A DNA stretch of 64,000 nucleotides from positions 4,849,001 through 4,913,000 of the forward strand of contig NZ_CP147020.1 of assembly GCF_037126435.1 (NCBI RefSeq), given 5' to 3'. The stretch is from Bernardetia sp. ABR2-2B. GTDB taxonomy: Bacteria; Bacteroidota; Bacteroidia; Cytophagales; Bernardetiaceae. Numbering within the stretch: position 1 is the stretch's first letter; each line of letters starts with the position of its first letter. A program made the translations under genes and the position numbers. Shown here in pieces: positions 4,230 through 64,000 of the stretch. The notes beneath the pieces are model-generated. The model was given only the letters and a program-made list of their open reading frames with translations, was not told the origin of the DNA and did not search any database.

Positions 4230-4285
4230 AATTAATCCAAAATTATTTTCTTTTACATTTAGCTGTCCCTTTGATTTATCTCAAT

Positions 4286-4313
4286 TCCCATGTCCTAGCT
4301 CCCAATTCCCAAT
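4286..4313. repeat. Heptamer array, TCCCAAT family
   Basis: Four consecutive 7-bp units: TCCCATG TCCTAGC TCCCAAT TCCCAAT. It lies just beyond the stop codon of the minus-strand universal stress protein gene (stop at 4326). The same heptamer family occurs inside the coding sequence at 48187-48248. Confidence 0.75.
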
Positions 4314-4325
4314 TTCTACTCCTCC

Positions 4326-12743: not shown

Positions 12744-12775
12744 ATTTCGTAATTCGTAATTTTTAATTCGTAATT
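12744..12775. repeat. Heptamer array, ATTCGTA/TACGAAT family
   Basis: Units ATTTCGT AATTCGT AATTTTT AATTCGT AATT. Read on the minus strand it begins about 10 bp after the stop codon of the OmpH-like gene. There it is almost identical, over ~35 bp, to 43329-43365 on the plus strand, including the variant unit order. Confidence 0.8.
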
Positions 12776-12785
12776 GTTCCTAGAA

Positions 12786-34517: not shown

Positions 34518-34550
34518 AAAATGAACATTTACCTCTCAAAAAGATTCCCA

Positions 34551-34599
34551 CTAATCACTAATCACTAATCACTAATCACTAATCACTAATCACTAATCA
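34551..34599. repeat. Seven perfect heptamers (CTAATCA)7 abutting a start codon
   Basis: Seven identical 7-bp units without a mismatch, ending 1 bp before the ATG at 34601. This perfect array would be expected to vary in copy number by slippage. Confidence 0.9.
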
Positions 34600-34600
34600 A

Positions 34601-35005
34601 ATGCAAAGAGAAAAAGATTATTTGAAAAAGAAAATAGACAAATTAGCTGTAGCTTTGGCAGAACTTTTAGCTAAAGTAACCAAAACAGAAGTTGCCTTCA
34701 CAAAAGAAGGGTTTGTTGCTGAGTTTGACCAAATTTTACAAGAAGAAACCAACTTAAACTTAAACGTAATTTTGGAAATGGAAGAGAACGACTTTTTAAA
34801 AAAATTACAAGAAAAAAATGAGTTCATGCCTAGCCAGTTACACATCTTAACAGATTTATTGTATCAATATTATCGTAATTTTGGAAATATAAATGGTCTG
34901 AATAAAAAAATAGTAACTCTTTATGAGTCTTGTATTGAAAATGGGATTGCACTCTCATTAGAAAAATACAAACTAATAGACAGTCTGAAAGAAAATAATG
35001 GATAA
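34601..35005 (+). CDS. Hypothetical helical protein
   Basis: A 134-residue, Lys/Glu/Leu-rich protein that appears entirely helical (MQREKDYLKKKIDKLAVALAELLAK). No signal peptide and no recognised family. It overlaps the DUF1415 gene by 8 bp at its 3' end, so the two are almost certainly translated from one mRNA. The start codon is directly preceded by the seven-unit CTAATCA array, so array length could influence its translation. Confidence 0.75.
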   Translation: MQREKDYLKKKIDKLAVALAELLAKVTKTEVAFTKEGFVAEFDQILQEETNLNLNVILEMEENDFLKKLQEKNEFMPSQLHILTDLLYQYYRNFGNINGLNKKIVTLYESCIENGIALSLEKYKLIDSLKENNG

Positions 35006-43301: not shown

Positions 43302-43302
43302 A

Positions 43303-43386
43303 AATCAGTTACTAGTTATCAGTAAGTAGGGAACAATTACGAATTAAAGATTACGAATTACGAATTAAACTTCTGACTACTAGTTA
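43303..43386. repeat. Composite heptamer array, ATCAGT and TACGAAT families
   Basis: About twelve consecutive 7-bp units starting 1 bp after the carboxyltransferase stop codon. First come AATCAGT TACTAGT TATCAGT AAGTAGG GAACAAT, then TACGAAT TAAAGAT TACGAAT TACGAAT TAAACTT CTGACTA CTAGTTA. It is the longest array in the window and joins two heptamer families in one phase. Confidence 0.8.
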
Positions 43387-43445
43387 ATTATATAATTAAA
43401 AGTATCAATTTATTTAATTTCTATTCCTAGTAGCCAGTTAAATAC

Positions 43446-43481
43446 AAAAGTCAATCATTTTTATAATGATTGACTTTTTTT
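43446..43481 (+). terminator. Rho-independent terminator
   Basis: A perfect 14-bp stem containing AGTCAATCATT and its complement, a 5-nt loop and a T-run. It lies 145 bp after the carboxyltransferase stop codon, beyond the heptamer array. Confidence 0.8.
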
Positions 43482-43537
43482 GTGACGTACACTTTAATGT
43501 GAGAGTGTCTATTCTATTGTTATTCGTATTTGTTGCC

Positions 43538-43571
43538 GTTGTTGATGTTTTAGCGAAGCGACACCAACAAC
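43538..43571. repeat. Dispersed palindrome GTTGTTGATGT...ACACCAACAAC, copy 2
   Basis: An 11-bp inverted repeat with one mismatch and loop TTTAGCGAAGCG, nearly identical to the loop at 6783-6794. It lies 11 bp after the stop codon of the minus-strand gene ending at 43582. Confidence 0.75.
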
Positions 43572-43581
43572 TAAATTGATT

Positions 43582-46296: not shown

Positions 46297-46761
46297 ATGA
46301 ATACTAAAATTTCTGTATTTTTATTTGCTCTTTTATTATCTTCAACAACTCTTTTCTCTGCATGTTCTCCTTCTGAAAGAAAAGATGCACGTCAAGAAGC
46401 AAACGAAGAAATGAAAGAAGCCAATGCTGCAATTACTGAAGCAGGTAATGAGTTTGAGCAAGAACGTATGGAGTTCAAAAATGAATGGGACACTAAAATG
46501 GAAGCTTGGGATGCTCGTTTGGCTGAATTAGATGCTAAAATTGAAGCACAAGGTGATGAAGCATCTGCTGAACTTAGAGAAGAGCGTCAAGAGCTTGGAA
46601 GAGAGTATGCAGAGTTCAAAGCAAACATGGAAAACGTAGAGAACAAAACTGAAGCTGAATGGGCTGAGTTTAAAGCTGATGTGAATACAACAGCTAATAA
46701 GATTGCTACTGATGTAGATAATGCCTTGAAAAATATTGACGTAAATGGTGACGGCAAATAG
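46297..46761 (+). CDS. Coiled-coil lipoprotein, tandem copy 1
   Basis: A 154-residue lipoprotein. The signal peptide ends with lipobox LFSAC (Cys ~23), then CSPSERKDARQE begins the mature part. The rest is a single charged helix rich in Ala, Glu and Lys, with repeated W and F residues every ~11 or 22 positions (EFKNEWDTKMEAWDARL; EFKANMEN; EAEWAEFKADVN). The C-terminus is NIDVNGDGK, which looks like the first half of an EF-hand/dockerin calcium loop. Likely periplasmic, membrane-tethered, perhaps peptidoglycan- or stress-related like short apolipophorin/LEA-type helical proteins. No named family. A near-copy follows at 46868. Confidence 0.75.
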   Translation: MNTKISVFLFALLLSSTTLFSACSPSERKDARQEANEEMKEANAAITEAGNEFEQERMEFKNEWDTKMEAWDARLAELDAKIEAQGDEASAELREERQELGREYAEFKANMENVENKTEAEWAEFKADVNTTANKIATDVDNALKNIDVNGDGK

Positions 46762-46867: not shown

Positions 46868-47332
46868 ATGAATACTAAAATTTCTGTATTTTTATTTGCT
46901 CTTTTATTATCTTCAACAACTCTTTTTTCATCTTGCTCACCTTCTGAAAGAAAAGATGCACAAGCAGAAGTAAATGAAGAAATGACGGAAATGAATAACG
47001 AAATTACTGAAGCAGGTAATGAGTTTGAACAAAAACGTATGGATTGGAAAAATGAATGGCAAAATAAAACAGACATGTGGGATACTCGCTTGGAAAAACT
47101 AGACACCAAGATTGAAACTTTAGGTGATGCAGCATCTGCTGAAATGATTCAAGAGCGTGAAGAACTTCGCAATGAATATGCAGAGTTTAAAACTAAAATG
47201 GAAAATACTGAAAATATAACAGAAGCTGAATGGGCTGAATTTAAAGCCGACATAAATCAACGTGGTGAAAAAATTGCTACTGACGTAGATAATTTCTTGA
47301 AAAATATTGATGTAAATGGTGATGGAAAATAA
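46868..47332 (+). CDS. Coiled-coil lipoprotein, tandem copy 2
   Basis: A 154-residue paralogue of the gene at 46297, same length. The first ~68 bp of coding DNA and some 10 bp before the ATG (TTTTTTATTATG) are identical at the nucleotide level, silent sites included. The mature part differs at many positions (EKLDTKIETLGDAASAEMIQ; ADINQRGEKIATDVDNFLKN). Lipobox LFSSC, same charged helix with periodic Trp/Phe, same C-terminal NIDVNGDGK. A strong bidirectional terminator follows. Confidence 0.75.
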   Translation: MNTKISVFLFALLLSSTTLFSSCSPSERKDAQAEVNEEMTEMNNEITEAGNEFEQKRMDWKNEWQNKTDMWDTRLEKLDTKIETLGDAASAEMIQEREELRNEYAEFKTKMENTENITEAEWAEFKADINQRGEKIATDVDNFLKNIDVNGDGK

Positions 47333-47400: not shown

Positions 47401-48666
47401 TTAAAATACTTTTCCATGTGTTAGACTAACCACCTTACGAGCCACTGAAGGGATATATTTGAATGTATTTATTAAAAGTTCACTAGATTGGCGTCCTCCA
47501 AAAAAATGTTGAACTGTTCTCCCTGCCTTTAATCGTAACTGAAACTGACTATTCCAATGCTTTTGATAGTCTGTTTTTAAAGTGTTGAAGTTTATTTGAT
47601 TGTCAAAGTGGCTAATTAGTAAATCACTCAAAATCTTTGAGCTATGAAGAGCCATTGCCATTCCATTTCCACACAAAGGCGTTATCATTCCTGCCGAATC
47701 TCCACACATCAAAATATCATCTTCAATTAATTTCTTAGGGGAAAAAGAAACTTGATTGATTATTTCTGGCTTATCATACAAAAATTCTGCTTCTTTTAAT
47801 ATTTTGCTAAGGAAAGGATTTTCTGTAAAAAGCTGTTTTTCTATGTTTTCTACTTTCTTAAAATCTGTAATATTGTCTTTATGAGAAAGATAACAAAAAC
47901 AAAATTTGTCATCTTCAATTCTTGAAATTCCACAGTAGCCACGCCAAAAATTATGTAGCGCAATTACATTATTAGGCATTAAATCCGTTTTGAGATGATA
48001 TTTTACACCGATATACGGAAAATTTTTGCTAGAGAAATCTCTTTGTAGTTTGTTATCCAAGTTGCTCCGTTTTCCATAAGAACCAATTACAACCTGACTT
48101 TTGATATTTCCATTTGAAGTCTCAATCAAGAATTTATTTTCAGCTTGTCTTTTTTTATTTGTTTCACTCAATTTATTACTCTCATTTCCTAACTCCCAAT
48201 TCCCAAGTCCTAATTCCTCTTTTGTATTCCCATTTCCCATTTCCTTATTCACATCTTTCACAAACGTTCCTTCCCAAATCTGAACCCCTTCTTTTGTTGC
48301 GATTTTTGATAATTCATAATCTAATGTATAACGACTGATTCCGAAACCACCCAACGGTAAATCTAACTCTAGCTTGTTTCCAGAAGGCGAAGAAAGCCAA
48401 AATTTGTCTAAAGCGACTGCACCAAAATCAAAAGGATTTACGCCTAAAGATTTTACATAGTCTAAGGCTTCATTCGAAATATATTCTCCACAAACTTTAT
48501 GAAATGGATAAGTGTTTTTTTCTATTAAAACGACTTTTATTCCTTTTCTAGCTAACCGAATACTACACGCCAAACCAGCCAAACCACCTCCGATGATGGC
48601 TATTTGAGTAGAAATAGTTTTTTTATTTTCTGTTTTAGCTGTTTCTTTTTGCTTAATTTTTATCAT
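47401..48666 (-). CDS. FAD-dependent oxidoreductase (geranylgeranyl-reductase family) with in-frame repeat insertion
   Basis: A 421-residue flavoprotein. FAD motif GGGLAGLACSIRLARKG (~26-42), then KVCGEYISNEAL (~57-68), a hallmark of the geranylgeranyl reductase/digeranylgeranylglycerophospholipid reductase group. The second FAD motif MCGDSAGMITPLCGNGMAMA is near the C-terminus. It probably reduces a polyprenyl or unsaturated lipid double bond or oxidises a small hydrophobic substrate; the exact reaction is unknown. Residues ~139-176 (EMGNGN, ELGLGNWELGNESN and so on) are a low-complexity insertion. At residues ~140-161 it is encoded by a heptamer array of the TCCCAAT family (48187-48248). 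The insertion keeps frame. It lies 44 bp after the first paralogue of the zinc-motif family, probably in the same transcript. Confidence 0.85.
   Translation of the reverse strand: MIKIKQKETAKTENKKTISTQIAIIGGGLAGLACSIRLARKGIKVVLIEKNTYPFHKVCGEYISNEALDYVKSLGVNPFDFGAVALDKFWLSSPSGNKLELDLPLGGFGISRYTLDYELSKIATKEGVQIWEGTFVKDVNKEMGNGNTKEELGLGNWELGNESNKLSETNKKRQAENKFLIETSNGNIKSQVVIGSYGKRSNLDNKLQRDFSSKNFPYIGVKYHLKTDLMPNNVIALHNFWRGYCGISRIEDDKFCFCYLSHKDNITDFKKVENIEKQLFTENPFLSKILKEAEFLYDKPEIINQVSFSPKKLIEDDILMCGDSAGMITPLCGNGMAMALHSSKILSDLLISHFDNQINFNTLKTDYQKHWNSQFQLRLKAGRTVQHFFGGRQSSELLINTFKYIPSVARKVVSLTHGKVF
48187..48248. repeat. Heptamer array, TCCCAAT family, inside a coding sequence
   Basis: Units TCCTAAC TCCCAAT TCCCAAG TCCTAAT, a 13-bp interruption, then TCCCATT TCCCATT TCCTTAT. 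Same heptamer family as the intergenic array at 4286-4313. On the minus strand it codes for Gly/Asn/Glu/Leu-rich residues of the FAD oxidoreductase. Confidence 0.85.
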
Positions 48667-48710: not shown

Positions 48711-49496
48711 TTATGAACCCAAATCTAATCTATTGTTTGTATTATCTAGGCTAGGAGGTATATTCTGAACAGGAATTTGAGAATGATTCGGAGTAGCATA
48801 TTTTTTTAGAATATTTGTTGCTTCTTCTATTCTCCTTTTCTCTCTTTCAGCAATAAAGAATCTATGTGTTTTGTTATCTTTTGTCGTAATAACTAGATGA
48901 TAAAAATCTTCTTCTTTATTGAATAAAATAGAATTAGCTAGAAACGAAAAAAAAGTGTCTTTTTCTGTACTAATTGTTTTGACATCTACACCTTCTATAA
49001 GTTCATTTTTTTGACCATTATTAATAATAAAATGACCTGAATCTAAAATAAGTTGTTTCTGTTTGTACATCTTTTTTCCTATTCCAATACCTACCAAAAC
49101 AGCAGCAACACCCACCAAAATAAAATTCATATTAAGAAGGTAAGAGAAGTAGGAAGCGATTGCGCCTATCAGAGCAAAAAAACCTGTATAAATGCTAGTA
49201 ATTTCTGATTGCTTGACTGTCCGAAACTGAAAAAAAGCAAGTTTATCTAACCTTTCAGTTCTTGATTCTCTATCAATTTTTACAGCTTCTTGTCTTGGTA
49301 TTTCTCTTAAAGTATGTGTTTGATTACAATGTTTATAATCCATATAACTCCAAGAATCTACCAAAAAAGCAGATTTGCAACTGGCACAAATTACAACATT
49401 ATCGCCTTCCTGTAAAATGTCTCCTGTGATGGGGTCTATTCGTTCTTGTTTTAAGAAATCACTGTGTTTTTCTTGTTCTAAAGTGTGGGTGGTCAT
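48711..49496 (-). CDS. Zinc-motif membrane protein, paralogue A
   Basis: A 261-residue member of a four-copy family in this window (also 50257, 51028, 51827). The N-terminal ~60 residues are nearly invariant: DPITGD at 21-26 and C37-x2-C40 in CASCKSAFLVDSW. H56-C57 follow, a likely single treble-clef or zinc-ribbon-like site. A double hydrophobic segment (~103-143) suggests two membrane helices. The C-terminal ~90 residues (HLVITTKDNKTHRFFIAERE) are strand-rich and may be a bacterial PH-like domain; this part diverges most. I recognise no named family. The motif order and 'E-R-I-D-P-I-T-G-D' recall U-box/RING openings but only one metal site is seen. It follows the toxin gene by 20 bp. Confidence 0.75.
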   Translation of the reverse strand: MTTHTLEQEKHSDFLKQERIDPITGDILQEGDNVVICASCKSAFLVDSWSYMDYKHCNQTHTLREIPRQEAVKIDRESRTERLDKLAFFQFRTVKQSEITSIYTGFFALIGAIASYFSYLLNMNFILVGVAAVLVGIGIGKKMYKQKQLILDSGHFIINNGQKNELIEGVDVKTISTEKDTFFSFLANSILFNKEEDFYHLVITTKDNKTHRFFIAEREKRRIEEATNILKKYATPNHSQIPVQNIPPSLDNTNNRLDLGS

Positions 49497-50256: not shown

Positions 50257-51009
50257 TTATGTTAATCTCTTTTCATTAACGGAAAGAAAAGGAAGAGAGT
50301 TTTTATCGAATTTTTGTAGAAAATTGGTTTCTTTTGAAACACGTTCTAGTTCTTTCTTTTGAAGAAGTAATTTATATACTGATTTATTTTTAGCTGTTAT
50401 TTTTATTGTATAACGAGAATTTTTTGATAAAAAAATATCTCTTATTACATTGTCAAACCAATGTCGCCTAGATTTGTATAATTCTATAGTTTGAATTTCT
50501 TTAACTTTCATCTTAGTCTCTGTATTTTCTTTTAAATTAAAAAATAGAGTGTTGTCTTCTATTTTAAAACTATTTTTATAATAGGATTTTTTAGAGCCAA
50601 AATAAACATAACAATAACAAATCAACATAACTAGAAATGCACTGTAACTGATATTTATGAGTGAGAAATGGTCAAGTAGAAAAGAAACAAAATAACCTAA
50701 GAGAAAATAAGGAAAGATAGTTATACGAGCTTCTTGATAATTTGCAAAAATTTTCACAGTTTTTAAATCAATCAAATAAGGTCTTTCAATCCTAACAACT
50801 TCACTTACAGGAATTTCTTTCAAAGTAATTTTCTGATTACAATGCTTTCTATCCATATACTCCCAAGAGTCCACCAAAAAAGCAGATTTACAAGCAGCAC
50901 AAATTACAATCTCATCATTTTCTTTTAATAAATCTCCTGTAATTGGGTCAATTCTGTTTTGAGCTAAGAAATCGTTGTGTTTTTCTTTTTGTAGGGTGTG
51001 AGTGGTCAT
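50257..51009 (-). CDS. Zinc-motif membrane protein, paralogue B
   Basis: A 250-residue paralogue. N-terminal DPITGD (21-26) and CAACKSAFLVDSW with C37, C40, H56, C57 as in the other three. Two membrane helices (~98-145; PYFLLGYFVSFLLDHF and AFLVMLICYCYVYFG). The C-terminal strand-rich domain has YTIKITAKNKSVYKLLLQKKE and ends NFLQKFDKNSLPFLSVNEKRLT. That last part matches the end of paralogue C (NSLTSPSVNSK), so B and C are the closest pair at the C-terminus. It lies 18 bp after paralogue C. Confidence 0.75.
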   Translation of the reverse strand: MTTHTLQKEKHNDFLAQNRIDPITGDLLKENDEIVICAACKSAFLVDSWEYMDRKHCNQKITLKEIPVSEVVRIERPYLIDLKTVKIFANYQEARITIFPYFLLGYFVSFLLDHFSLINISYSAFLVMLICYCYVYFGSKKSYYKNSFKIEDNTLFFNLKENTETKMKVKEIQTIELYKSRRHWFDNVIRDIFLSKNSRYTIKITAKNKSVYKLLLQKKELERVSKETNFLQKFDKNSLPFLSVNEKRLT

Positions 51010-62400: not shown

Positions 62401-64000
62401 AACTTGGACAGCAACTGATGCAAGTGGGAACACAGCAACAGCTACTCAAATCGTAACAGTTATAGATAATCAAGCTCCTTTAGTTCCTGCATTATCAAAT
62501 GTAACCAGCGAATGTTCGGTAACACTTACAGCACCAACCACAACAGATAATTGTGCAGGTACAATCACAGGAACGACAACCACAACATTCCCAATTACAA
62601 CACAAGGAACAACAGTTGTGAATTGGAACTTTAATGATGGAAATGGAAATAGTTCATCGGTAAGTCAAGTAGTAACGATTGCAGATTTGACTCCACCAGC
62701 AACTCCTGTTTTAGCAGATATAAATAGTGAGTGTTCTATTACTCCTACTGCACCAACAACTACTGATAACTGTGCAGGAACAATTACAGGAACAACAACT
62801 ACTGTCTTTCCAATTACAGCACAAGGAACAACCGTTGTTACTTGGAGATTTGTAGATGCAAATGGAAATTCTGTTACAGCAGACCAAAATGTAGTTATCA
62901 ATGATGTAACGCCACCAGCAGTTCCAACTTTGGCAGACGTAAACTCATCTTGTTCTATTACTCCTACTGCACCAACAACTACTGATAACTGTGCAGGAAC
63001 AATTACAGGAACAACAACAACCGTATTTCCAATTACAGCACAAGGAACGACTGTTGTAACTTGGACATTTACCGATGCAAATGGAAACTCTGTTACAGCA
63101 GACCAAAATGTAGTTATCGATGACGTAACACCACCAGTAACACCAGTTTTGGCAGATGTAAATGCTTCTTGTTCGACGATACCAGCAACACCAACCACAA
63201 CAGATAATTGTGGCGCACTAGTTACAGGAACAACAACAACTATTTTCCCAATTACAGCAACAACTGTAATTACTTGGACATTTACAGATGTTAGTGGAAA
63301 CTCTACGACAGCAGATCAAAACGTAATTATTAATGATGCAATTGCTCCAGTAGTTCCAGTTTTACCTGATTTTGTAGCAGAGTGTTCTGCAAACCCAACA
63401 ATACCAACAACAACAGATAATTGTGCAGGTACAGTAATAGGAACAACAACAACTGTATTCCCAATTACAACACAAGGAGCAGTAGTAGTTACTTGGACAT
63501 TTGATGATGGAAATGGAAATTCTGTTACAGCAAATCAAAATGTAATTGTAAATGATATGACACCTCCAGTAGTTCCTTTCTTATCTACTCTTTCTGATGC
63601 TTGTTCGATTACGCCAACAGCACCAACAACAACAGATAACTGTGGTGGGACAATTACAGGAACAACAACAACTGTATTTCCAATTACAACCCAAGGCGTA
63701 ACAATAGTAACTTGGACGTTTACGGATACAAATGGAAATTCTATTACAGCAAATCAAAGTGTCGTTATCAATGACATCATACCACCTGCTGTTCCAACAT
63801 TAGCAGATGTAACGGCTCAATGTTCAGTTACTCCAACTGCGCCAACCACGACAGATAATTGTGGTGCAACAATTACAGGAACAACAACTACTGTATTTCC
63901 AATTACAACTCAAGGAACAACCATAGTAACTTGGACATTTACAGATGCAAATGGAAATACAAGTACAGCAGACCAAAATGTAATTGTTGATGACGTTACG
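56489..64000 (+). CDS. Giant beta-helix/ASH/HYR repeat surface protein, 3' end beyond the window
   Basis: An open frame of at least 2504 codons with no stop before the window ends. A long basic n-region (to ~35) leads into a hydrophobic segment HYFFVLLFMFFTPFGYSA (~35-52), so it is probably exported. Three modules follow (56636-58550, 58550-59602, 59603-61935). Each has an opening SGxGSLREA/SLRQA block, right-handed beta-helix repeats, an NNYWG sequence and a choice-of-anchor D (ASH-like) domain with DFDP-type strands. An Ig-like linker (61936-62225) and one HYR-like domain (to ~62460) come next. Then come exact 73-residue repeats from 62474. A T9SS sorting domain would be expected at the missing C-terminus. 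The likely role is adhesion or matrix formation. Confidence 0.88.
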   Translation, partial: MSSTTTFTSLKQQKPTCFKEPLLKKVKKTYINWKHYFFVLLFMFFTPFGYSATFTVSSLADSGTGSLREAITLANANADADIIEFSVNGIINLATPLPSITRPLTIDGTSTPGYVFETNMIWIRTIGNAIQANSSGVTQLTIKGLDLSNPTTDYSGTGLYIRNASNVLIDELIIKKRGTAILVQNSTDVTITDSKIVDNTVGVRLENLYSGSIPNGISMSGNSIKGSLNNDLYIRNIDNLIISDGTIANTNISFSESLDGNNDFYSYNNYNYGDGSIYIIQCDNIEIRNIDVSSLTERGAGVNISNCQNVLIDNITAKNREAGVAAYNTTDITITNCDFRDNTPSYSYNESAIFLSTILSNTLQGGVLIEDNQFGIENRTTIGRLLYVANSNNIVVSDGTYIGTNIALPSLLEMDFPLSFDNVFALEIHNLTIKSPTLRGTGISIESGGTTQVDNITFENKNIGMYVESSLNTNITCSSFVRNGNAIEISDNSTDVSVENTTFVCNTLAIENAMINSIDAQNNYWGESDGSISASGSGDAYTGLVDATNPLASQNTCAPVVLVSEIEIEGNSLAIPDEDTTPIVGDNTDFGSILFTTGSIEKTFTINNNGDGILNISSISRSGTNAGEFAIGGITFPASVAVGGSATFTVTFDPISVGDRFATISIVSDDCDKSPYTFAVKGKGDPLTTTVTNLDDSGVGSLRQAITNSQINPGADVIDFTVQGIINLTSSLPTINQPLTIDGTTAPSYAVGSPTVTVSINNRIFYVSSVNGFSLLGLNITSNGSVVNEGLYIVNSQNVTIEGNIFQNKTFGLRILNAGVGYSIACNTFKANQYGIYLQSTSSDFASFINNSFYCNTTYAIYNTSGVTIDAENNYWGNSTGSSTDGGVGDAYSGNITATNPLATANACSPTVPLSVINTQGNSITISNGDTTPATTDDTDFGNTLFVGGTVTKTYTIQNTGNAPLVISNIYSSGANSSEFTRGGISLPATIAAAGSTTFTMRFDPLTVGTRTATVNIASNDCDKSPYTFSVKGIGDPLSTVVTNLNNSGAGSLRQAMLNSETNPGADVITFTVQGTISQSFSLPTLTQPTEIDGTSAPGYATGVPSITIARTSTVFTISNASNVELKALDISNPSSNFLGNAIQITNSSRITIDEVIAKKRIRSVSATSVTDLTITNSDFRDSGSSDTNGAITINGLSQSLLSGGILMNDNQFGAENLTPVQVLNIQSANYLRISDGTVGGTNITMDNSGLDMASPFKFDLVNYSRIDKLDFTNSTSSFNGIAINSTNCRDLRINDIIAKKRRIAIKGSDNIDIRITNSDLRDSGSNPSEGAITMNSPFSSSLNGGVYFVDNQFGAEALNPTHTLVMTEASNLIISNSTSGSTNITIDTGGGRVLYPITLNDVDNSTIRNVDLSRGAAGFEGYGIWAYNNCQGLTITNTTIKRRLSALVVEGATDVRVTNNDFRDSGSNRAALVLWDITSSILPGGMLVAANQFGAENQNPARTIHLQRVRDIVISDGTTTGTNINLASGLDVEYPVLLSDVDNVAISELDFSSSVANAGNGIAIYISDVASNSSQNVSVDKVTIANKFYGVYVERSVDISLTCNLFTGNNIGLQVVGNVLIPSTFTTISNNNFGCNTVAINNTTTSNLNAQNNYWGAADGSVTDAGSGDSYLGNVDVSNFLTTASACAKALPVTEINVKGNTLTILDGDITPRTDDGTDFEGIQVTSGVISKTFTIENTGSSPLTVTSISTTGTHASDFTISGVTIPTSVASNSSTTFVVDFDPSALGIRTATVVINNNDCSEGVYDFAIQGEGSLPASITLEAINPTSYCSGTTISVPFNTTGSFGGANTFTAELSDASGNFPAIATATGTSPIALTIPNSATSSSNYVVRVVASNPAIQSANSSAITITQDITNPVITAPAPISVVADAGLCTAVISNLGTPTATDNCNAPTVTNNALANFPLGATTVTWTATDASGNTATATQIVTVIDNQAPLVPALSNVTSECSVTLTAPTTTDNCAGTITGTTTTTFPITTQGTTVVNWNFNDGNGNSSSVSQVVTIADLTPPATPVLADINSECSITPTAPTTTDNCAGTITGTTTTVFPITAQGTTVVTWRFVDANGNSVTADQNVVINDVTPPAVPTLADVNSSCSITPTAPTTTDNCAGTITGTTTTVFPITAQGTTVVTWTFTDANGNSVTADQNVVIDDVTPPVTPVLADVNASCSTIPATPTTTDNCGALVTGTTTTIFPITATTVITWTFTDVSGNSTTADQNVIINDAIAPVVPVLPDFVAECSANPTIPTTTDNCAGTVIGTTTTVFPITTQGAVVVTWTFDDGNGNSVTANQNVIVNDMTPPVVPFLSTLSDACSITPTAPTTTDNCGGTITGTTTTVFPITTQGVTIVTWTFTDTNGNSITANQSVVINDIIPPAVPTLADVTAQCSVTPTAPTTTDNCGATITGTTTTVFPITTQGTTIVTWTFTDANGNTSTADQNVIVDDVT
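57500..61060 (+). repeat. ~141-residue beta-helix units inside the giant protein
   Basis: A unit opening with DFRD (or DLRD) recurs at 57500, 60023, 60446 and 60872. It contains GGxLxxDNQFGAEN (or a variant), ISDGT...GTNI and DVDN. The last three are 423 and 426 bp apart, showing tandem duplication within the third module. Confidence 0.7.
62474..64000 (+). repeat. Tandem 219-bp (73-residue) HYR/Ig-like repeats
   Basis: Seven complete units begin at 62474, 62693, 62912, 63131, 63344, 63563 and 63782. Six are 219 bp and one (63131-63343) is 213 bp, lacking two codons. An eighth would start at 64001. Core residues are C..TPTAPTTTDNC, TITGTTTTVFPIT and WTFTDANGNS. Conserved Cys pairs suggest a disulfide in each unit. 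Confidence 0.9.

Follow-up and report, generated by a model that had tools for sequence, protein, structure and literature searches.

A GGGAATT-family heptamer array in frame within an FAD-dependent oxidoreductase gene of Bernardetia sp. ABR2-2B, and related arrays between genes

A 64,000-nucleotide stretch of the 5.38-Mb genome of Bernardetia sp. ABR2-2B (G000:C1:4849001-4913000, hereafter the window) was analyzed, where positions 47401..48666 of the (-) strand encode a 421-amino acid FAD-dependent oxidoreductase. The gene was identified from its open reading frame (ORF), a PF01494 (FAD_binding_3) match above the cut-off of the profile search, and family matches; the geranylgeranyl reductase family TIGR02032 was its top NCBIfam match, but below the cut-off. 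The protein fold resembles those of flavin-dependent halogenases, hydroxylases, and geranylgeranyl reductase. Upstream of the gene are two similar ORFs (48711-49496 and 50257-51009), both starting with MTTHTL(E/Q)(Q/K)EKH, and the adjacent 154-amino acid ORFs at 46297-46761 and 46868-47332 have near-identical N-terminal parts and are likely paralogues.

The oxidoreductase gene carries a heptamer array at 48181..48249 of the (-) strand, which was recognized from the sequence, array detection, a chance test, and orthologue comparison. Read on the coding strand from 48249 down to 48181, the array is composed of three units (AATAAGG, AAATGGG, and AAATGGG), a 13-nt interruption on the same strand (AATACAAAAGAGG, at 48216..48228 or nucleotides 22-34 of the array), and five further units (AATTAGG, ACTTGGG, AATTGGG, AGTTAGG, and AAATGAG). 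The units belong to a degenerate GGGAATT/TTCCCAA family, and the array is a single arm without an inverted partner. Its length of 69 nt, the sum of eight heptamer units (56 nt) and the 13 nt, is divisible by three, and it occupies codons 140-162 (NKEMGNGNTKEELGLGNWELGNE). The initial annotation had claimed an array inside this gene and in frame, and both are present in the sequence, although its limits (48187-48248, residues about 139-176) were slightly off: the heptamer codons are about 140-162. The 13-nt interruption it described is real, while its proposal that the interruption is there to keep the frame is reasoning after the fact, because any net length that survives must be a multiple of three.

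A second array of the family, previously claimed between genes at 4286-4313, does exist. It was identified at 4282..4317 of the (-) strand from sequence, array detection, and a 19-mer match. To the right of its matched core, at a distance of 8 nt, is the 3' end of a 270-amino acid ORF, and its orthologous region was compared in G001 to G004. The family was probed with the 19-mer TTCCCAATTCCCAATTCCC at up to three mismatches, and the reversed pattern or shuffled sequences served as controls. Five matches were found in the window, four in the oxidoreductase array and one at 4299-4317, while shuffled windows contained a mean of 0.03 matches and none of 100 shuffles reached five. Genome-wide, there were 43 matches versus none for the reversed pattern; a single array accounts for several overlapping matches in some cases, and at least one match (1840604) appears to be due to chance. 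The latter lies in a 350-amino acid ORF, presumably CobT-like, and was treated as chance because its GEMGIGN stretch, which we take to be a motif of that protein, looks native. Among six congeners (G001 to G006), the counts were 286 in G002, ten in G004, eight in G003, six in G006, four in G001, and zero in G005, with reversed controls of zero or one (one in G002). At two mismatches, 57 of the 291 genomes of the order had matches. High counts occurred in few of them (142 in G002, 51 in G067, 31 in G141, 18 in G237, ten in G012, and nine in ABR2-2B), and the low counts among the 57 do not exceed control values reached in other genomes. The GGGAATT family is real and patchy, with large differences between congeners. 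Its unit is GGGAATT with variants, and many arrays have GG instead of GGG in some units, as compared with the four G tracts of a G-quadruplex expected for GGGAATC-type repeats.

Other heptamers showed distinct distributions. The AATTACG pattern had 226 matches in the ABR2-2B genome, possibly including overlaps within arrays, versus none reversed; it had from 74 to 385 matches per congener and none in the four genomes of the family's other three genera. Arrays resembling TAACTGA were found elsewhere in the ABR2-2B genome (six in 604 kb versus none reversed), while CACTAAT (five versus four reversed) and AGATTTT (eight versus nine) were no commoner than their controls. The heptamer array with the highest score in the window is a perfect CACTAAT run of about seven units (34543-34604), which ends at the start codon of the ORF at 34601. 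Strings that combine unlike units are found repeatedly, such as AATTACGAATTAAAAATTACG among the matches listed of G001 and G002. The composite AATTACG AATTAAA AATTACG, or a near variant, was also seen at many intergenic sites of the ABR2-2B genome and among the matches listed of G001 and G002 (for example, 12744-12776, 43335, L070:16943, and L082:5617). Across the genome, a few heptamer families (GGGAATT/TTCCCAA, AATTACG, TCAGTTA, and others) form a population of short, degenerate arrays that are mostly intergenic and near gene edges.

The rarity of the arrays inside genes was assessed in 364 kb, composed of the window and 15 stretches placed regardless of matches, 85% of which was in ORFs of at least 80 amino acids according to a simple caller. 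With a filter that drops arrays fitting another period better or dominated by one base, 16 period-7 arrays were found: 13 were intergenic, two touched a start codon, and only that of the oxidoreductase was inside a gene. When the window was excluded, 11 arrays remained, ten intergenic, one touching, and none inside. The 16 arrays were counted at 16 of 21 matching positions, where periods 4, 5, 8, 10, and 11 had from zero to two arrays and the codon multiples 6, 9, and 12 had four, three, and 12, respectively; at 17 of 21, period 7 had five, period 12 had three, and the others had zero or one. As in dispersed bacterial heptamer repeats, period 7 stood above other periods and chance, and the same unit occurred at many genome sites. 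In a looser, family-specific scan covering stretches partly picked for matches, ten of 40 rows were inside ORFs, showing that look-alikes do occur in genes. Four of these ten were in one repetitive ORF of 1791 amino acids, two in the gene for MutL, and one each in the FAD oxidoreductase, a quinone oxidoreductase-like protein, a doubtful 84-amino acid ORF, and a 179-amino acid ORF. The matches at 1281850 and 960353 were not scored as internal inserts, as they lie at the 3' ends of ORFs of 221 and 500 amino acids.

The FAD oxidoreductase insertion is paralleled in two more genes. In one, whose product we take from its sequence to be a quinone oxidoreductase-like protein, heptamer-like inserts were recognized by eye in a single loop in ABR2-2B, G004, G006, and G002 (L143), while the loop is short in G003, G001, and G005. 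By eye, the inserts of ABR2-2B and G006 look homologous and that of G004 differs. The other gene, presumably mutL from its sequence, had matches in all seven genomes with a linker that varies in all of them, and in ABR2-2B (G000:C1:743692-743745, L051) and G002 the linker contains an inverted pair of heptamer arms. As mutL is a mismatch-repair gene, its own state could affect repeat stability. The initial annotation had also claimed that the arrays spread into genes, which gains from the two additional genes, while the rarity of in-gene arrays (one of 16 in 364 kb) weighs against it; such a spread is plausible.

Matches to the FAD oxidoreductase gene were found in ten of the 11 genomes of the family and not in G002, whose genome is 92% complete. 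The protein is longest in ABR2-2B (421 amino acids), followed by G004 (405), G003 (400), G001 and G005 (394 each), and G006 (385), while it ranges from 371 to 385 in eight aligned sequences of other genera, which came from four genomes of the family, UBA2561, and three of six Hymenobacter loci and have short loops. The length differences fall mainly between FVKDV and ENKFLIET, where the loop of ABR2-2B exceeds that of G003 by 63 nt. In the alignment of orthologues, G004 has a different heptamer stretch (GGGAAGGGAAATTGGGAATTGGGAATTGGAG) at the place of the ABR2-2B array, and no heptamer run occurs at the loop in G003, G001, G005, and G006. The alignment proposed in the initial annotation therefore came out as expected, with the insertion absent or different in all orthologues examined and the loop variable; the same conserved insert was not found in distant genera, whose orthologues have none. 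Only about 21-23 of the roughly 38 residues first taken for an insertion are heptamer-derived, however, and the remainder belongs to a loop that, in all five congeners having the gene, is somewhat longer than in the outgroups.

A phylogeny of three genes (3,834 nt, with the FAD gene missing for G002) placed G003 and G004 as sisters with 100% bootstrap support, while the position of ABR2-2B was weakly supported. Judged from these sequences, the presence of an array in ABR2-2B and G004 and its absence in G003 would mean either two gains, or one gain with losses. For both the FAD and the quinone oxidoreductases, the insert is in ABR2-2B and G004 and missing from G003 even though G003 and G004 are sisters, which calls for more than one gain or loss in this loop and not for one invasion. 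A single old insertion in the ancestor of the genus, kept in ABR2-2B and G004 and lost by contraction elsewhere, could explain why these two genomes have the left junction of the FAD insert in common (GT(G/A)AATAAGG), and the apparent homology of the ABR2-2B and G006 inserts in the quinone oxidoreductase speaks for it as well. However, extra losses would be needed, as the loop of G003 aligns gap-free with those of G006 and G001 across the insertion point despite the close relation of G003 to G004, and the unit make-up differs between ABR2-2B and G004, which leaves the old insertion a rather unlikely history.

The structure of the ABR2-2B protein was predicted with AlphaFold2 from an alignment of nine sequences (mean pLDDT 74.1). 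Residues 141-175, between strands 135-138 and 179-183, had pLDDT below 50, which fits a disordered loop in the model; the shallow alignment may have contributed to the low values. The prediction agrees in part with the expectation of an exposed, tolerated loop: it places a low-confidence loop between two strands, and the surface exposure of this loop is deduced from the low confidence and the loop position.

We consider it likely that a GGGAATT-family array ended up in frame within this tolerant loop and was then changed by slippage and mutation. Heptamer arrays would arise mostly at gene edges, and one of the GGGAATT family would have come to lie in frame between two strands of the oxidoreductase. 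The loop would tolerate a disordered insert rich in Gly, Asn, and Glu, such that selection lets the array stay, while arrays elsewhere in genes would be purged, survival inside a gene requiring both a net length that is a multiple of three and a tolerant loop. The array may subsequently have grown, shrunk, and mutated by slippage. By the genetic code, GGGAATT can be read through without a stop on both strands and in every phase: over 21 nt, TTGGGAA is translated as LGIGNWE and TTCCCAA as FPIPNSQ. Because a 7-nt unit is coprime with three, each strand yields one cyclic translation of seven residues, so a GGGAATT array stays open at any net length that is a multiple of three. AATTACG (NYELRIT) and TCAGTTA (LSVISYQ), by contrast, can each be read through on a single strand only. 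Purifying selection is the probable reason that most arrays lie between genes, and slippage the probable source of changes in array length; the array at 2355443, which has five units in ABR2-2B and 27 in G002 and is orthologous by its flanks, fits the latter.

Such variation in length at a fixed site would also be compatible with an array that arose on the spot by slippage of a short native stretch coding for Asn, Lys, and Glu, without the arrival of a foreign heptamer, all the more as the congeners have an AT-rich loop that varies among them. This origin is nonetheless improbable, given that most of the 43 genome matches share their GGGAATT family with the FAD units, that the four array-less congeners have no such seed at the site, and that many sites have composites of unlike units like AATTACGAATTAAAAATTACG. 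Selection of the insert for protein function, or as a length switch of expression, has a precedent in the in-gene tandem arrays that serve phase variation elsewhere; it is highly improbable here, where the array is degenerate, interrupted, and in frame in both species having one, and where its heptamer part shows no conservation and has no confidently predicted fold. Although drafts assemble repeats badly, an assembly or sequencing artefact is practically negligible for a short array with an intact frame and analogous inserts in the same loops of G004 and other genomes.

The GGGAATT-type arrays between genes showed a marked polarity. In ABR2-2B, 27 of 29 rows had a gene closer to the 5' end of the G-rich strand than to its 3' end, and so did ten of 11 rows in G002. 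One ABR2-2B array contributes two of the rows, a few rows represent other AT-rich units, and many of the stretches had been picked for matches. The median distances from the 5' and 3' ends to the gene were 7 and 86 nt in ABR2-2B, and 1 and 118 nt in G002. The gene facing the 5' side could be on the same strand, with its stop codon toward the array, or on the opposite strand, with its start codon toward it, such that gene direction was indifferent. In a stricter test of six units, the gene was nearer on the 5' side for AATTGGG (13 of 14), AATTACG (14 of 16), and AATTGTG (three of three), while the counts for TAACTGA, CACTAAT, and AGATTTT were zero of four, one of four, and two of six, respectively. 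Given the zero of four for TAACTGA, its complement TCAGTTA fits the rule (four of four, few cases), and no rule can be claimed for CACTAAT and AGATTTT because they are no commoner than their reversed controls. The polarity was tested here after a similar rule was known from Xanthomonas and Nostoc (PMC4692102).

Some arrays have an inverted partner arm. A strict search found inverted arms in two of 23 GGGAATT arrays of ABR2-2B. At an alignment score of at least 13, they were on the 3' side of eight of 22 rows, two of the eight being one pair and one being an AATTGTG-type array, with no inverted arm on the 5' side and no direct copy. At score 13 in G002, four of 13 had an inverted arm on the 3' side and none on the 5' side, and direct copies occurred twice on the 3' and once on the 5' side. 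None of 18 AATTACG arrays had an inverted arm. By these counts, a hairpin reading holds for about a third of the GGGAATT arrays, in addition to cases seen by eye. Across 315 intergenic regions, 29 end-to-end inverted matches were found at score 12 versus 5.0 with shuffled partners, and many of the 29, judged by eye, resemble ordinary terminator hairpins or palindromes of other kinds. A further dispersed intergenic palindrome, of about TTGTTGGTGTCGCTTCGCTAAAACACCAACAA, was seen at 43302-43581 of the window, L082:11703-11901, L084:11327-11429, and L148:17287-17530. The sequence GAATACAAATACATTTT was rejected as a separate conserved motif of the 3' end (30 matches versus 22 reversed at three mismatches and six versus two at two mismatches, in 604 kb); the longer GGGAATACAAATACATTTT had six versus none at three mismatches and 21 versus seven at four, which may only reflect array ends.

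Six ABR2-2B arrays, selected because the gene edges at their sites are clear, were set against the orthologous regions of G001 to G004, except that G002 has no match at 332508 and its contig stops early at 1398811. At 17 of 21 matching positions, a threshold set after the data were seen, three of the six slots clearly hold different heptamer families in different species. Specifically, slot 512936 contains GGGAATT in ABR2-2B and TCAGTTA in G001; slot 332508 contains GGGAATT in ABR2-2B and G003 and TTAGTGA in G004; and slot 467249 contains GGGAATT in ABR2-2B and G002 and AATTACG in G001, G003, and G004. The matches at this threshold keep the polarity, with one borderline exception (the complement of TCAGTTA at 332508 in G004, with 17 matching positions). 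The remaining three slots had GGGAATT in G002 (3073171 and 4853299) or no family at 17 of 21, and partly unrelated palindromes.

Tentatively, an active process in Bernardetia might write polar heptamer tracts at gene edges, where each family starts with a fixed end beside a stop or a start codon and where an inverted partner arm would in some cases turn the intergenic region into an edge-to-edge hairpin. The family in a slot could then be replaced between close species (GGGAATT versus AATTACG, TCAGTTA, or TTAGTGA) with the polarity kept, and coding inserts like that of the FAD oxidoreductase would be rare overshoots into tolerant loops. A search comprising two protein families and one motif revealed neither an insertion machinery nor a duplicated target, and no source copy or footprint of insertion was identified. 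A reverse transcriptase as the writer gained no support, as PF00078 has no match in G002 (92% complete), the congener with the most GGGAATT matches, and such an enzyme is not needed on this evidence. Under mobilization as a REPIN or MITE by a Y1 transposase, copy number would be expected to follow the transposase; the number of PF01797 matches (eight in ABR2-2B, 15 in G001, ten in G002, nine in G003, eight in G004, four in G005, and three in G006) had no evident relation to the GGGAATT counts among these seven genomes.

Heptamer repeats are found in several bacterial lineages. Rickettsia palindromic elements (RPE) are a repeat family that occurs both between genes and in frame inside genes, and they are palindromes of about 100-150 nt with a fixed length and no heptamer periodicity. 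As we understand that definition, the FAD array differs in being one-armed and heptameric, and the MutL array is an inverted pair but again heptameric. Calothrix and other cyanobacteria have short tandemly repeated repetitive (STRR) heptanucleotides, which, as here, have 7-nt units with several families per genome. Three heptanucleotides are mentioned for Calothrix in PMC4692102. The same paper describes the GGGAATC and GGGGA(C/T)T heptamer repeats of Xanthomonas and Nostoc as dispersed, degenerate, of few units, and under-represented in coding regions, and places the GGGAATC repeats of Xanthomonas and the G-rich repeats of Nostoc nearer to an ORF on their 5' side in either ORF direction (PMC4692102). 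The G-rich 7-nt unit and the 5'-side polarity both recur in Bernardetia, whereas the exact GGGAATC or GGGGA(C/T)T unit does not: the unit here is GGGAATT in an AT-rich genome of Bacteroidota. A share of the Bernardetia arrays also has inverted partner arms, and its in-frame enzyme inserts could be compared with insert-less orthologues. Flexibacter litoralis, which we take to be now classified in Bernardetia, provides a second parallel. PMC4679880 reports TAACTGA direct repeats in Beggiatoaceae, Cyanobacteria, and Bacteroidetes including F. litoralis, where 12 of 14 sets are close to start codons and a set of two is inside purC. There, the repeats are mostly intergenic, 11 ORFs of the Maribeggiatoa genome have reverse TAACTGA repeats, and the reverse orientation TCAGTTA can be read as LSVISYQ (PMC4679880). 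Both systems thus have heptamer repeats in Bernardetia that are mostly intergenic and occasionally in ORFs, while the unit of the FAD array, GGGAATT, is open on both strands and TAACTGA only as TCAGTTA. GGGAATT arrays are not treated in the parts of PMC4679880 consulted here, and among the matches listed in a literature search that covered few subscription journals, no title dealt with them in Bernardetia.

Heptamer repeats, also in ORFs and in Bernardetia, have already been published for Cyanobacteria, Beggiatoaceae, Xanthomonas, and Bacteroidetes, and the pattern of slots and polarity is the bolder lead, from a small sample. The pairs of close species with and without an insert present a noncoding repeat becoming an in-frame part of conserved enzymes, and the stop-free phases on both strands show why GGGAATT can enter genes. 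The polarity common to GGGAATT, AATTACG, and TCAGTTA here and to the Xanthomonas and Nostoc units hints at a common mechanism in distant phyla, which seven Bernardetia genomes would make testable. Near the end of the window, a tandem repeat with a much longer unit of 219 bp was also observed, with 6.7 copies at 62528-63982.
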